Part shown: piece after piece, positions 58,199 to 63,398 of the stretch
Layout of the letters: every line of letters starts with the position of its first letter
Numbering within the stretch: the first letter of the stretch is position 1
NCBI GenBank assembly: GCA_017431345.1
Contig: JAFRLH010000085.1
Location: 37,911 to 101,910 of the forward strand
Reading direction: 5' to 3'
Source of the DNA: Lachnospiraceae bacterium
GTDB lineage: Bacteria; Bacillota; Clostridia; Lachnospirales; Lachnospiraceae
DNA: 64,000 nucleotides
Position numbers and translations under genes: made by a program
Notes under the pieces: generated by a model
The model's database searches: none
Told to the model about the DNA's origin: nothing
The model's input: only the letters and a program-made list of their open reading frames with translations

Positions 58199-59349
58199 AG
58201 AAGATCATAGTGACCGCATATAAAAAAATGCTTTTTTCGGCGCTGGCAGAGAATGAAAAGATCATTGAAATGGACGCGGATCCGGAACCCGGATCACTGA
58301 AAGCCGGCGATATCGTTCTTGCCACAGTCAGGAATACCGCTGACAATATAAAAGCCGCTTTCTGCGAGATCGGAAGCGGAATGATCGGTTTCCTGCCGTT
58401 TACCGAATGCAATGTACCGCTGAAAGGCCATATGCTCATCCCCGTCCAGATCAAACGGGATGCTTCCGGTCTGAAAGAGAGGATGCTGTCCGCCCGTTTC
58501 TCTGTTCCGGGCCGGAACCTTGTACTTCTGTATGAACCTGCAGGAGAACATTTCTGCGTATCCAAAAAGGTTTCCGACAAAGCCAGGACAGCAGAACTGA
58601 AAGAACTTCTGGCCGGGAAATGTACGGATACTCCTTTCGGATTCATCATCCGGACAAATGCTTTTTCCGCCGATATTGAAACGATCCTTTCGGAGGCAGA
58701 TGCCCTGCTGGAACAAGGTGCTTCTGTATTAAATGCAGCGGAACACAGAACACCGGGGAGCATTCTTTACCGTGCTCCGGATCTCTGCAGGGAATGGCTT
58801 CTCGGCGCTGCAGCGGAAGAGGAGATCGAAGTCATCTCTGAAAAGGCGGATTATCTTGATGTTCTGAAGAAGGATCCGCTGCTTTCCGGCATTCCTTTTT
58901 CAGCAAGGCATTATACAGATCCGTTCCCGTTAGAAAAGCTTTTCCGGCTGGATCATTATACAGAACTTGCGCTTTCCCGGAAAGTCTGGCTGCGGTCAGG
59001 CGGTTTTCTGATCATTGACCGCACAGAGGCAATGACCGTGATCGATGTGAACACCGGCAGCGCTGTCTCCGGGAAAGACAAGGAAGAGACGTTCCTGAAG
59101 ATCAATCTGGAAGCAGCCGAAGAGATCGCTTATCAGCTTCGCCTTCGAAATCTTTCCGGTATCATTATCGTCGATCTCATCAATATGAAAAGCAGGGATC
59201 ACATGAAAGCGGTGGAAGCCTGTTTCCATAAAGCGCTTTCCGGGGATCCGCATAAAGCGGTCCTTATGGATATCACCAGACTTGGTCTGGCAGAGATCAC
59301 CAGGCAGAAAAAAAGAAAACCTTTTTATGCTGCAGTTCTGATTTCTTGA
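58195..59349 (+). CDS. rng: ribonuclease G/E family protein
   Basis: 384 residues; ATG overlaps the upstream stop. S1-like domain in the first ~100 residues (GDIVLATVRNTADNIKAAFCEIGSGMIGFLP), then the catalytic core with the metal-binding Asp pair in MTVIDVNTGSAVSG and GIIIVDLINMKSRDH. It is shorter than E. coli RNase G (489) and has no C-terminal zinc-link or small domain motif that I can see. Endoribonuclease for rRNA and mRNA processing. In many Clostridia this gene directly precedes rplU; here an amino-sugar operon lies between. Confidence 0.9.
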   Translation: MKKIIVTAYKKMLFSALAENEKIIEMDADPEPGSLKAGDIVLATVRNTADNIKAAFCEIGSGMIGFLPFTECNVPLKGHMLIPVQIKRDASGLKERMLSARFSVPGRNLVLLYEPAGEHFCVSKKVSDKARTAELKELLAGKCTDTPFGFIIRTNAFSADIETILSEADALLEQGASVLNAAEHRTPGSILYRAPDLCREWLLGAAAEEEIEVISEKADYLDVLKKDPLLSGIPFSARHYTDPFPLEKLFRLDHYTELALSRKVWLRSGGFLIIDRTEAMTVIDVNTGSAVSGKDKEETFLKINLEAAEEIAYQLRLRNLSGIIIVDLINMKSRDHMKAVEACFHKALSGDPHKAVLMDITRLGLAEITRQKKRKPFYAAVLIS

Positions 59350-59374
59350 CAATTAAAGCGACGCAGTATAAAAT
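59346..59374 (+). promoter_or_regulatory. promoter of the amino-sugar operon
   Basis: TTGACA (59346-59351) overlapping the rng stop codon, 17 nt, TAAAAT (59369-59374). Predicted start about 59381, giving a leader of about 245 nt that contains the ribozyme. Confidence 0.8.
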
Positions 59375-59435
59375 TCTTATTTAGGGTTAAAATACCAACC
59401 GTAAAACCCGTTGCTTCACGGAGGTACATAAGGAA

Positions 59436-59597
59436 CAGGTTAGCGCCGGGACCATTCAGGTTGACGAGGTATGGCAGTTATCGAAAGATTCGGCGGATGC
59501 TGCCACGGTCGGGTCTGCAGTAACACGCTGCAGCGGACGGATCGTGAGGAAGAAAGGAAAAAGCAGAATCAACACTGTAACAGAGATTCTTCCGACG
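59436..59597 (+). ncRNA. glmS-type glucosamine-6-phosphate riboswitch ribozyme
   Basis: Core elements match the glmS ribozyme: cleavage-site AGCGCC with predicted scission between A59442 and G59443, a short stem ACC/GGT (59451-59453, 59459-59461), the invariant GACGAGG (59463-59469), P3 arms tggcag/ctgcca around TTATCGAA (59478-59485) and CGGCGGATGC (59491-59500), then a GC-rich P3.1/P4 region with GAGGAAGAAAGG and a closing ATTCTTCC. The element is known as a self-cleaving riboswitch using glucosamine-6-phosphate as coenzyme and normally lies before glmS. Here the next gene is nagB. Confidence 0.93.
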
Positions 59598-59626
59598 TCT
59601 TATCATAATCTAAAGGAGATACTTCA

Positions 59627-60418
59627 ATGAGAGTTGTTATACAGGATAATTACGATAAGATGTGCAAATGGGCTGCCGACTATATTGCAGCAAAGATCAA
59701 AGCGCATAAAGAAGACCGTCCTTTTGTTCTCGGCCTTCCTACCGGCTCAAGCCCCATCGGCGTTTACAGGGAACTTGTCCGCATGAACAAAGCCGGAGAG
59801 CTTTCCTTTGCGAATGTCGTCACTTTCAACATGGACGAATACCTTGGCCTGCCCCACGAGCATGACCAGAGCTACTGGTATTTCATGCATGACAATCTTT
59901 TCGATCATCTTGTCGACATGAAGCCTGAAAACATAAATATTCTGAACGGCATGACCGACGATCCCGAAGCAGAGTGCGCTGCTTACGAAGCAAAGATCGC
60001 TTCCTACGGCGGCATCGACCTGTTCATGGGCGGCATCGGTGTGGACGGTCATCTTGCCTTCAATGAGCCTTATACGTCCCTTACATCCAGGACCGGTGTC
60101 AGGGATCTGACGACCGACACCAGGATCGTGAACAGCCGTTTCTTCGGCAATGATCCGGAGAAGGTTCCTGCACAGGCGCTTTCCGTCGGCATCGGGACCG
60201 TAACGGATTCCAAAGAAGTGCTTGTCCTGATCTCCGGCCATAATAAAGCCAGAGCGCTTGCTGCGACTGTAGAAGGCGGTGTAAGCCAGAAATGGACTTG
60301 CTCTGCGCTGCAGATGCACAACGGTGCCATCATCGCCTGCGACGAGGAAGCCTGCGGCGAACTGACAGTGGATACTTACAAATATTTTCTTGACATTGAG
60401 AAAAAGGAAAGACTTTAA
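59627..60418 (+). CDS. nagB: glucosamine-6-phosphate deaminase (probably biosynthetic here)
   Basis: 263 residues, start behind AAAGGAG. NagB motifs: GLPTGSSPIGVYREL, FNMDEYLGLP (Asp70-Glu71), GGIGVDGHLAFNEP (Asp140, His142) and a C-terminal region with SQKWTCSALQMH. It interconverts glucosamine-6-phosphate and fructose-6-phosphate plus ammonia. Preceded by a glmS ribozyme and followed by glmR, an acetyltransferase and glmM, it is likely used in the aminating direction to feed UDP-GlcNAc synthesis, which is inference from context. No nagA, GlcNAc transporter or GntR-type site is nearby. Confidence 0.95.
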   Translation: MRVVIQDNYDKMCKWAADYIAAKIKAHKEDRPFVLGLPTGSSPIGVYRELVRMNKAGELSFANVVTFNMDEYLGLPHEHDQSYWYFMHDNLFDHLVDMKPENINILNGMTDDPEAECAAYEAKIASYGGIDLFMGGIGVDGHLAFNEPYTSLTSRTGVRDLTTDTRIVNSRFFGNDPEKVPAQALSVGIGTVTDSKEVLVLISGHNKARALAATVEGGVSQKWTCSALQMHNGAIIACDEEACGELTVDTYKYFLDIEKKERL

Positions 60419-60420
60419 TA

Positions 60421-61383
60421 ATGAAAAAAGTTATCGTCTTCGGAGGAGGCACAGGACTTTCGTGCCTCCTGTCTGGCCTTAAGCTGTTTCCGGTCGAAGT
60501 GACTACCGTGATCACGGTCAGCGACGACGGCAGCAGCACCGGCGTTCTGAAAAAGGAATTCGATATTCCTGCAGTCGGCGACGTCGGCAAGGTCCTTCTT
60601 TCCATGGCCAATGCGGATGAGGATCTGATCAGTCTTTTAAGATATCGTTTTCACAAGGAAGGATCAACGCTCTTCAATCATCCCGTCAGGAATATTCTCC
60701 TGACAGCACTGATCGATCAGAAGGGCAGCCTTACCGAAGCTGCGAAGTATATGGGAAGTCTCCTGAACATCAAAGGAGAAGTCCTTCCGCTCACCGAAGA
60801 AAGAGCGGAGCTGGTCGGCATCAGTGATGAGAACGGCGAGGAATTCTACGGCCAGGTAAGCGTAAGCCAGAATATCCGCAGGATCTCCAGACTGTCCTAT
60901 GATCACAATATCCATGTCGGCAGAAAGGTCAGGAAAGCGATTTCCGAAGCTGATCTGATCATTTTCAGTCCCGGGAGCCTTTTCACTTCCATTCTGCCGC
61001 ACCTGATCGCCAAAGCGATCGTGAAGGAGATCGAACATTCTGATGCTCCCATCATGTATATCTCGAATCTGGTAACACAGCCGGGCGAGACGGACGGTTA
61101 TAACGTCAGCGATCACCTGAAGGTGCTCAACAGCTATCTCGGGAACAGGAAAGTGGATATCGTGGTCGCGAACAACGCAGAGATCGATCCGAAGATCATT
61201 GAAAGATATCTGGTCACGGAAAACAAGACGCTTGTTGCGCTTGACAGAGAGAATACGGAAGCACTCGGGGCCAGGATCATTGAAGACGATATTTTCTGCA
61301 TCGAAGAGGAAAGAATACGCCACAAAGCGCTCCATACTGCTTTCCTGGTGTTTTCTTATCTGATGGAAAATGAAAGTGAATAG
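60421..61383 (+). CDS. glmR: YvcK/GlmR-family protein
   Basis: 320 residues, starts 2 nt after the nagB stop. CofD/YvcK fold: VFGGGTGLSCLL at the N terminus, TVSDDGSSTG, GDVGKVLLS, NHPVRNILL, FSPGSLFTSILPHL and YISNLVTQPGETDGY. In Bacillus subtilis the homologue (GlmR) binds UDP-GlcNAc and adjusts amino-sugar synthesis and carbon flow to the wall. Its position here between nagB and glmM supports the same regulatory role. It may regulate NagB instead of GlmS; this is speculative. Confidence 0.92.
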   Translation: MKKVIVFGGGTGLSCLLSGLKLFPVEVTTVITVSDDGSSTGVLKKEFDIPAVGDVGKVLLSMANADEDLISLLRYRFHKEGSTLFNHPVRNILLTALIDQKGSLTEAAKYMGSLLNIKGEVLPLTEERAELVGISDENGEEFYGQVSVSQNIRRISRLSYDHNIHVGRKVRKAISEADLIIFSPGSLFTSILPHLIAKAIVKEIEHSDAPIMYISNLVTQPGETDGYNVSDHLKVLNSYLGNRKVDIVVANNAEIDPKIIERYLVTENKTLVALDRENTEALGARIIEDDIFCIEEERIRHKALHTAFLVFSYLMENESE

Positions 61384-61395
61384 TAAGAGGTAAAT

Positions 61396-62052
61396 ATGTA
61401 TACAATCAAAGATCTTTATGACCTGGATCATACGATCGCCGCAGATTATCTGGCCGGATTCACGTATCCCTGGGAAGCGCTGAAAGGCATTAAGGAACTG
61501 ATCCTGACGCTCGGCCCGCAGCTGGGAGAGGATTATGAGGAAGTATCCGAACATGTCTGGGTGCACAAAACAGCGAAAGTGTTCCCTTCCGCTTATCTGG
61601 GCGCGCCCTGCATTATCGGACCGGAGACGGAAGTCCGCCACTGCGCATTTATCCGCAGCGCGGCGCTTGTCGGCGCGAATTGTGTTGTCGGAAACAGCTG
61701 CGAGTTAAAGAACGTGATCCTGTTCGACCATGTGCAGACGCCGCATTATAATTATGTGGGCGATTCCATCCTCGGCTATTACAGCCATATGGGCGCCGGT
61801 TCGATCACTTCCAACGTGAAATCCGACAAACAGCTTGTCGTGGTCCACAACGGTGGAGAGGATATTCCTACCGGTATGAAAAAGTTCGGCGCCATGCTCG
61901 GCGATTATGTCGAAGTAGGATGCAACTCGGTCCTTAACCCCGGTACGGTGATCGGACGTCACTGCAATGTCTATCCGACCTCCTGCGTACGCGGCGTGAT
62001 CCCGGAGAACAGCATCCACAAGAACAACGGAGAGATCGTGAGGAAAAAATAA
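61396..62052 (+). CDS. left-handed beta-helix acyltransferase, GlmU C-terminal-like
   Basis: 218 residues. N-terminal ~60 residues helical; then hexapeptide repeats of a left-handed beta-helix (VHKTAKVFPSAYLGAPCIIGPETEVRHCAFIRSAALVGANCVVGNSCELKNVILFDHVQ), SYMGAGSITSN-like loop and a C-terminal helix cap. This resembles the acetyltransferase half of GlmU, which makes GlcNAc-1-phosphate; the nucleotidyltransferase half is absent. Between glmR and glmM, it is a good candidate for GlcN-1-phosphate acetyltransferase. Start ATG lies 12 nt after glmR behind AAGAGG; its stop overlaps glmM (TAATG). Confidence 0.85.
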   Translation: MYTIKDLYDLDHTIAADYLAGFTYPWEALKGIKELILTLGPQLGEDYEEVSEHVWVHKTAKVFPSAYLGAPCIIGPETEVRHCAFIRSAALVGANCVVGNSCELKNVILFDHVQTPHYNYVGDSILGYYSHMGAGSITSNVKSDKQLVVVHNGGEDIPTGMKKFGAMLGDYVEVGCNSVLNPGTVIGRHCNVYPTSCVRGVIPENSIHKNNGEIVRKK

Positions 62053-63398
62053 TGGGAAAATATTTCGGAACAGACGGTTTCCGCGGGGAAGCTAACAAGA
62101 CCCTTACTTTTGATCATGCCATTAAGATCGGCAGATTCCTTGGCTGGTACTACGGTGCCAATCAGGGAAAGAAAGCGAAGATCGTGATCGGCAAGGATAC
62201 CAGAAGATCATCTTACATGTTCGAGTATGCGCTCTGCACCGGCCTTATGGCAAGCGGTGCGGATGCCTACATCATGCATGTAACGACCACGCCTTCCGTT
62301 GCTTATATTACGAGAGTCGATGATTTTGACTGCGGCATCATGATCTCCGCTTCGCACAATCCTTTTTATGACAACGGCATCAAGCTTCTGAACGGCAGCG
62401 GAGAGAAGATGGATGAAGAGACGATCCTGAAGGTCGAGGATTATATCGACGGGAAGCTGGAGATCCCGGTATCAGAAAGAGAGCACATCGGCCGTACCGT
62501 CGATTATGTCGCCGGCCGCAACCGTTATATCGGCCACCTGATCTCCATGTCCAAATACAGCTTTAAGGATGTAAAAGTCGGACTGGATGTCGCGAACGGC
62601 GCTGCCTGGCAGATCGCCAAAGGCATTTTTGATGCGCTCGGCGCAAAGACTTATGTCATCAACGATGAACCCGACGGCTACAATATCAACACCAACTGCG
62701 GCAGCACCCATATCGGGCATCTGCAGAAATTCGTTGTGGAAAAAGGCCTGGATGTAGGCTTTGCGTTTGACGGCGACGCCGACAGATGCCTCTGCGTGGA
62801 TGAGAAGGGCAATGTCATCACCGGCGATCATATCATTTATATTTACGGTCTTTATATGAAGGAGCGCGGAAAACTCCTGAACAACAAAGTCGTTACGACC
62901 GTCATGAGCAATTTCGGCCTTTACAAAGCACTTGACAAGGTCGGTATCGAATATGACAAGACCAAAGTCGGAGACAAATATGTCTATGAAGACATGGTCA
63001 AAACCGGCAACCGCATCGGCGGCGAGCAGAGCGGTCATATCATTTTCTCCAAATATGAAACGACCGGAGACGGTATCCTTACTTCCCTGAAGATGATGGA
63101 AGTCATGCTGGCAAAGAAAAAGCCCATGAGCGAGCTTGCGGCGCCTGTCGTATTCTATCCGCAGGTCCTCAAAAATGTCCGTGTAAAGAGCAAACCCGAT
63201 GCGCAGAACGATCCCGATGTGCAGGCAGCAGTCGCAAAAGTGGCTGAGGAACTGGGAAGCAACGGCAGGATCCTGGTGAGGGAATCCGGCACGGAGCCTG
63301 TGATCAGAGTCATGGTCGAAGCCGATACGGATGAGATCTGTGAGAAGTATGTTGACAGCGTGATCGATGTGATCAAAGCCAAAGGACATATGGCATAA
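62052..63398 (+). CDS. glmM: phosphoglucosamine mutase
   Basis: 448 residues; ATG overlaps the upstream stop by 1 nt. GlmM signatures: KYFGTDGFRGEAN, catalytic ISASHNPFYDNGIK (Ser101), metal loop FAFDGDADRCL, sugar loop GGEQSGH and phosphate-binding RESGTEPVIRVMVE. Converts glucosamine-6-phosphate to glucosamine-1-phosphate for UDP-GlcNAc. Normal length. It places the operon firmly in biosynthesis rather than GlcNAc catabolism. Confidence 0.95.
   Translation: MGKYFGTDGFRGEANKTLTFDHAIKIGRFLGWYYGANQGKKAKIVIGKDTRRSSYMFEYALCTGLMASGADAYIMHVTTTPSVAYITRVDDFDCGIMISASHNPFYDNGIKLLNGSGEKMDEETILKVEDYIDGKLEIPVSEREHIGRTVDYVAGRNRYIGHLISMSKYSFKDVKVGLDVANGAAWQIAKGIFDALGAKTYVINDEPDGYNINTNCGSTHIGHLQKFVVEKGLDVGFAFDGDADRCLCVDEKGNVITGDHIIYIYGLYMKERGKLLNNKVVTTVMSNFGLYKALDKVGIEYDKTKVGDKYVYEDMVKTGNRIGGEQSGHIIFSKYETTGDGILTSLKMMEVMLAKKKPMSELAAPVVFYPQVLKNVRVKSKPDAQNDPDVQAAVAKVAEELGSNGRILVRESGTEPVIRVMVEADTDEICEKYVDSVIDVIKAKGHMA

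Follow-up and report, generated by a model that had tools for sequence, protein, structure and literature searches.

The 64-kb stretch of DNA analysed here (the window) carries a glmS ribozyme on its + strand, directly in front of nagB. Textbooks present the glmS ribozyme as a feedback switch of a single gene and NagB as a catabolic enzyme; at this locus they stand together at the head of a run of four genes. The features are as follows.

59346..59374, +, sigma-70-like promoter TTGACA-17-TAAAAT upstream of the ribozyme (consensus scan 11/12)
59431..59603, +, glmS self-cleaving ribozyme, predicted to be activated by glucosamine-6-phosphate (GlcN6P); RF00234, 57.3 bits, with covariation in 70 cassette ribozymes
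59450..59462, +, first stem, 59450-59453 with 59459-59462; pairing kept in 98.9% of cells, two-sided changes in 2 of 4 pairs
59472..59505, +, second stem, 59472-59476 with 59501-59505; pairing kept in 100% of cells, two-sided changes in 4 of 5 outer pairs
59481-59484 with 59490-59493, +, hairpin stem inside the second stem; 4 inner pairs, invariant
59506..59544, +, third stem, 59506-59510 with 59540-59544; pairing kept in 97.7% of cells, two-sided changes in 2 of 5 pairs
59548..59593, +, 3' domain, 59548-59554 with 59587-59593; pairing kept in 93.8% of cells, two-sided changes in 7 of 7 pairs
59563-59566 with 59575-59578, +, inner stem of the 3' domain; pairing kept in 99.3% of cells, two-sided changes in 3 of 4 pairs
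59612..59618, +, ribosome-binding site of nagB, AAAGGAG, read from the sequence
59627..60418, +, nagB, glucosamine-6-phosphate deaminase/isomerase of the longer kind, 263 aa; TIGR00502, 374.7 bits (cut-off 236.9)
60421..61383, +, yvcK/glmR, UDP-GlcNAc-binding regulator family; TIGR01826, 265.8 bits (cut-off 196)
61396..62052, +, AcT, left-handed beta-helix acetyltransferase resembling the C-terminal half of GlmU
62052..63398, +, glmM, phosphoglucosamine mutase; TIGR01455, 539.2 bits (cut-off 447.55)

A glmS-type ribozyme with invariant core blocks and matching stems in front of nagB had been proposed from the sequence, and the run of the Rfam covariance model that the original prediction called for bears this out; the match at 59431-59603 (+) spans the full model (1-167) with 57.3 bits (E 1.4e-10), where the gathering score is 37. 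The element had been placed from 59436, a start that lies five bases inside the Rfam match. A pattern of three of the proposed core blocks occurs once in the 64 kb and in none of 100 shuffles, and the only other RNAs found at gathering scores in an Rfam search of the 64-kb window were two tRNAs. The 3' end of the ribozyme lies 23 bases before the ATG of nagB, the cleavage point is presumably between A59442 and G59443, as in known glmS ribozymes, and the 3' domain is what we take to be P4 in the usual naming. At 11 of 12 consensus positions, the promoter at 59346..59374 is a consensus match only, the scan of the region having returned three sites of that quality where 1.2 were expected.

Pairing was examined in 70 ribozymes from loci of the same kind (the NagB-AcT-GlmM cassette described below), comprising 64 of the 65 from named genomes and six from the family and genus. 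Across 29 tested pairs, standard pairing was seen in 97.9% of cells and two-sided change in 18 pairs; none of 500 shuffles equalled either value, and sliding the partners lowered pairing to 33-53%, a comparison biased toward the unslid structure in that the helices were taken from the Rfam alignment of the window sequence. Score above the gathering cut-off, core and compensatory stem changes all place 59431-59603 in RF00234. Moreover, 24 columns are invariant between 7 cassette and 23 glmS-linked ribozymes, thus giving no hint of a change of ligand, and the RNA is an ordinary glmS ribozyme. Family, core and helices are the same as in the ribozyme before glmS and the same ligand and feedback are expected, whereas the target here is nagB (or AcT or glmM, see below) and glmS itself has no ribozyme.

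The four genes lie on one strand with two bases between nagB and yvcK/glmR, 12 bases between yvcK/glmR and AcT and a one-base overlap of AcT and glmM, and are probably cotranscribed. AcT aligns with the C-terminal part of TIGR03992 at 138.7 bits, below the model cut-off of 292.1, and its PDB matches are sugar-1-phosphate nucleotidylyltransferase and GlmU entries. Together, NagB, GlmM and AcT would span the route from fructose-6-phosphate to GlcNAc-1-phosphate. In B. subtilis, GlmR has been tied to GlcN6P synthesis and proposed as an activator of GlmS (PMC6171935, in part). A GlmR homolog is common to that system and the present one, the difference being that glmR here lies within the nagB operon, where it might act on NagB.

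A survey of 200 genomes from 200 genera of the family revealed the ribozyme in 40, standing before glmS in 35, before nagB in two (the window and G053) and before AcT followed by nagB in three; in G154 the order is ribozyme-AcT-nagB-glmM. All five cassette genomes also carry a GlmS over the cut-off, and in a search of the 200 genomes their NagBs scored 370-376 bits, with every other NagB at 308 bits or less. Among the 25 best-scoring of these other, ordinary NagBs, which share 37-46% identity with that of the window, no ribozyme was found in any of the stretches read, and nagA was present in nine. Within the genus, seven of 11 genomes have the ribozyme, three before nagB and four before glmS. 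Ribozyme-glmS is accompanied by an ordinary nagB beside nagA in three of the latter four (G201-G203); G205 encodes a NagB of the cassette type (92% identity), and no ribozyme was found in its genome, the 1.5 kb read ahead of that nagB included; and in G207 the contig ends inside a cassette-type nagB.

At class level, 150 ribozyme matches were obtained in 148 of 391 genomes (147 genomes over the cut-off), and all 150 were inspected. The stretch read held glmS for 143 of them, once in pieces (L276), and cassette genes followed the ribozyme in four, namely the window, G517 (nagB-AcT-glmM), G614 (AcT-glmM) and G395. The window ribozyme does not occupy the position upstream of glmS, which is usual for the family though not strictly part of its definition; its target is nagB. 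In G395 (L416, 208-932) the ribozyme match is below the cut-off and nagB breaks off after residue 111, followed by a 591-codon open frame, possibly as the result of an insertion. The remaining three of the 150, in G350, G433 and G295, showed no recognisable gene; L314, L333 and L426 are glmS ribozyme matches with none directly after them. The orders ribozyme-glmS-AcT-glmM (L299) and ribozyme-glmS-AcT (L316) show GlmS in the slot that is filled elsewhere by NagB. One contig (L404, from G415) carries two glmS ribozymes, each near a GlmS, the second GlmS match being shorter.

Recurrence was assessed in named genomes using the best 80 of at least 564 confirmed relatives of the window NagB (91-97% identity). 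By title these come from Clostridia and others, and 38 of the 80 titles name ruminant or rumen; the title codes RUG and RUI presumably denote further rumen sets. YRB3002, NK3D112, NK3B98 and G41, with strain titles lacking 'MAG' or 'uncultured', were taken as isolates. A regular expression for the ribozyme core overlooked 23 of the 46 ribozymes already known. In its place, 30 ribozymes of the family were used to build a covariance model, which located a ribozyme upstream of the cassette genes in 65 of the 80 loci (E at most 3e-16, next match 0.54). Rfam's own model, run on 29 of the 80 loci, confirmed 22 of 22 positives and none of seven negatives. The first gene after the ribozyme was nagB in 49, AcT in 14 and glmM in two of the 65, at a median gap of 38 nt. 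In the 15 loci where no ribozyme was detected, three have fewer than 600 bases before nagB and 12 have more than 1.5 kb. Hence, the ribozyme before nagB is rare in the class as sampled and frequent in this NagB clade.

In 56 of these 80 loci, AcT or glmM is found no more than 3 kb from nagB, and a GlmR match was obtained in five. Median identity was 94% for NagB (80 matches), 86% for AcT (53) and 87.5% for GlmM (52); GlmS gave 10 matches in the 80 loci, with a median identity of 50%. GuaA (reference from G000) and PyrG (reference from G053) around glmS in cassette genomes show 53-84% identity, and the NagB of G517, placed by a classification tool in the same class but another order, shows 96%. 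The high conservation suggests that the cassette may have spread horizontally. GlmS lies directly upstream of ribozyme-AcT-nagB-glmM in L112 (3138-5283), L113 and L117, and before nagB in L139 and L184, where the ribozyme was not found. Seven loci (L127, L130, L137, L140, L144, L145 and L185) have a protein of about 950-1040 aa starting with MYVF after ribozyme-nagB, with neither AcT nor glmM; that of L185 is an alpha-amylase family protein.

The residues Asp70, Glu71, Asp140 and His142, on which the enzyme had originally been called a NagB deaminase, are indeed present together with Glu147, and all five are kept in 80 of 80 close relatives (best 80 of at least 564). Equivalog score and catalytic residues place the window protein in TIGR00502, and its best PDB matches are glucosamine-6-phosphate deaminases. 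The RTRIK stretch of four PDB relatives reads RTGVR in the window NagB and RTG[VLI]R in 80 of 80 cassette-type NagBs (best 80 of at least 564). Arg158, within this stretch, is presumably a phosphate ligand of GlcNAc6P. Lys160 has been described as an allosteric residue of NagB (PMC4008608, in part). Their places are taken by Gly and Arg, respectively, in all 80, and the GlcNAc6P allosteric site of the hexameric type, a feature of that subgroup, is not found in cassette NagB. Judged by these residues, GlcNAc6P allostery has probably been lost, and a NagB free of GlcNAc6P activation would suit synthesis.

Cassette NagBs match TIGR00502 to the model end and the ordinary ones of the family mostly end near position 248 of 259; a C-terminal helix is a mark of the hexameric kind (PMC9812318, in part). 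Compared with the hexameric allosteric deaminase of E. coli type, then, the family, active-site residues, length (263 aa) and C-terminal region are alike, whereas the allosteric residues are changed and the gene stands in a biosynthesis cluster under a ribozyme. In a tree of 52 rows, 25 of them cassette NagBs (the window, four family members and every fourth of the 80) and 27 ordinary ones, the two kinds were split at 100/100, with a bootstrap that had not fully settled.

The NagB reaction can run both ways, with an equilibrium constant of 0.2 M and the catabolic direction favoured; for the E. coli deaminase, a Km of 31.4 mM for ammonium is given (PMC11593775, in part). With assumed values of 1 mM fructose-6-phosphate and 10 mM ammonium, about 50 micromolar GlcN6P would be reached, and at 0.1 mM ammonium about 0.5 micromolar. 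A gut rich in ammonium could thus sustain an ammonia route, which might fail once ammonium is low and a glutamine route would be needed. A deaminase (GlmD/NagB) has been engineered to run backwards at high ammonium, bypassing GlmS (PMC12385614, in part); such ammonium-driven glucosamine pathways are man-made and have no ribozyme feedback, whereas the cluster described here is natural and recurring.

The assembly containing the window (3.27 Mb, 96.9% complete, 5.1% contamination) has one ribozyme, that of nagB, one nagB and one full-length GlmS (804.7 bits, contig C81). The original prediction had proposed a whole-genome search for glmS and had counted a glmS with a ribozyme of its own, together with a NagB acting only in deamination, as evidence against itself; a full-length glmS is there, and it carries no ribozyme. 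Since a ribozyme-less GlmS is encoded in the genome, NagB is not established as the sole source of GlcN6P. Contamination was considered as the origin of this gene and judged unlikely, as 16 kb of C81 gave a tetranucleotide correlation of 0.973 with the window, compared to 0.971-0.978 for window pieces against the rest and 0.60-0.89 for stretches of seven other genomes. The order on C81 is glutamine synthetase III, asnB, glmS and guaA, with pyrG 7 kb further on.

This neighbourhood was compared between 25 cassette genomes (five of the family and 20 of the 40 named genomes with GlmS over the cut-off, picked by order of match and length of contig) and 22 ribozyme-glmS genomes (20 of 35, picked by length of contig, and two of the genus). 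Glutamine synthetase III, AsnB, GuaA or PyrG was found near glmS in 19 of 25 versus 2 of 22 (p 5e-6), a comparison that may somewhat favour the cassette group since the reference proteins came from cassette genomes and stretch lengths differ. Individually, glutamine synthetase III was near glmS in 14 of the 25 cassette genomes, PyrG in 17, GuaA in nine and AsnB in nine. None of the 25 glmS loci has its own ribozyme; the match in L233 is the ribozyme of a nagB that shares the stretch. A possible RNA switch at the glmS cluster was also considered and rejected, no Rfam element besides a tRNA being found in the seven of 25 glmS stretches searched. Likewise, a general shift to ammonia enzymes was not indicated, with AsnA in 26 of 39 cassette and 14 of 21 control genomes.

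Fifty of the 80 cassette genomes were searched for GlmS, which was over the cut-off in 40, present only in pieces in three and not seen in seven, meaning that NagB is usually not the sole route. Six of the seven are metagenome assemblies, possibly incomplete; the seventh is the strain-titled draft NK3B98, taken as an isolate, in which there was no GlmS match above 24 bits and where ribozyme-AcT-nagB is followed by mraW and a PASTA penicillin-binding protein. In the same 50 genomes, NagA was over the cut-off in 16 and weaker (148-220 bits) in 10, and no NagA-like match above 45 bits was present in 24. The window's genome has nagA on another contig, and part-time catabolic use of its NagB is therefore possible.

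We consider it likely, on sequence evidence, that NagB of this cassette uses fructose-6-phosphate and ammonia to make GlcN6P, subject to feedback through the ribozyme, with GlmS as a low-ammonia back-up. The ribozyme would head an operon, nagB-glmR-AcT-glmM, for UDP-GlcNAc precursors, probably from its own promoter, and the amination of fructose-6-phosphate would be pulled forward by GlmM and then AcT. Accumulating GlcN6P would serve as cofactor of the ribozyme, the leader would be cut and the operon turned down, placing product feedback on an enzyme unrelated to GlmS; when ammonia is scarce, the ribozyme-less GlmS in the glutamine synthetase cluster would take over, presumably under nitrogen control. 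A reverse-aminating NagB under the ribozyme of its product was the core of the original prediction, and the operon with glmM and AcT, the recurrence of the linkage, the separate clade with its changed allosteric stretch and the one strain-titled genome in which no glmS was found all point in its favour. Against this reading stand GlmS in 40 of 50 carriers, the presence of nagA, the 12 well-flanked loci of the 80 and G205, in which no ribozyme was found, the truncated nagB of G395, the lack of AsnA enrichment in cassette genomes, the Rfam search of seven glmS stretches that gave only a tRNA and the favoured catabolic direction of the reaction.

NagB could instead be the usual catabolic deaminase, the ribozyme limiting GlcN6P breakdown or having merely drifted there, a view that fits its TIGR00502 equivalog status, nagA in the window's genome and NagA over the cut-off in 16 of 50 cassette genomes, and deamination as the favoured direction (PMC11593775, in part). 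However, cutting the mRNA upon a rise in substrate would oppose catabolism, 65 of 80 loci show the linkage despite shuffled gene order, the neighbours are biosynthetic, 24 of 50 genomes have no NagA-like match above 45 bits and none of the 25 ordinary family nagBs read has a ribozyme, and we regard this explanation as very unlikely. We give equally little credence to the idea that the ribozyme serves AcT and glmM with nagB as an operon passenger: the ribozyme is followed first by AcT or glmM in 16 of 65 loci, and the 3.2 kb read of L339, at class level, contain ribozyme-AcT-glmM and lack nagB, but nagB comes first in 49 of 65 and is the most conserved of the three (94% versus 86% and 87.5%), and among the 24 of 80 nagB loci that have no AcT or glmM within 3 kb (a few of them cut by contig ends), 18 have the ribozyme.

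NagB and GlmS might also form a two-way valve in which surplus GlcN6P goes back to glycolysis through NagB, a flow that the ribozyme would hold low. Both enzymes occur together in most genomes examined, and glmS lies within 3 kb of nagB in five of 80 loci; the sign of the ribozyme is nevertheless wrong for a relief valve, because high GlcN6P would shut it, and we hold this to be the least probable of the alternatives. Extending the preferred reading, that of a biosynthetic NagB, many gut Clostridia might have a nitrogen-switched pair, in which the ammonia route would be provided by a NagB-AcT-GlmM cassette that spread horizontally and is governed by a GlcN6P ribozyme, and the glutamine route by GlmS in a glutamine synthetase III regulon, some species having lost GlmS and building their wall from ammonia-derived GlcN6P alone; we hold this broader proposal to be an even call. 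Such a pair would parallel glutamate dehydrogenase versus GS-GOGAT.

In the portions of the literature covered on the ribozyme, on GlmS with NagB and on NagB allostery, a glmS ribozyme in front of nagB is nowhere reported; the main family survey (McCown et al., 2011) lies outside that scope and may hold an earlier mention. As far as searched, the ribozyme target, the cassette and the apparent ammonia/glutamine split with GlmS are new, the RNA family itself being known. The locus would be an example of a riboswitch following the reaction rather than the gene: a ribozyme on a non-homologous enzyme that must then run in reverse would be natural evidence that NagB can be biosynthetic, and annotations filing these nagB genes under GlcNAc catabolism would be corrected. 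For gut bacteria it also offers a testable connection of ammonia supply with precursors of the cell wall, and it points to the recruitment of a textbook breakdown enzyme, together with its RNA brake, to cell-wall synthesis in this bacterium and many relatives.
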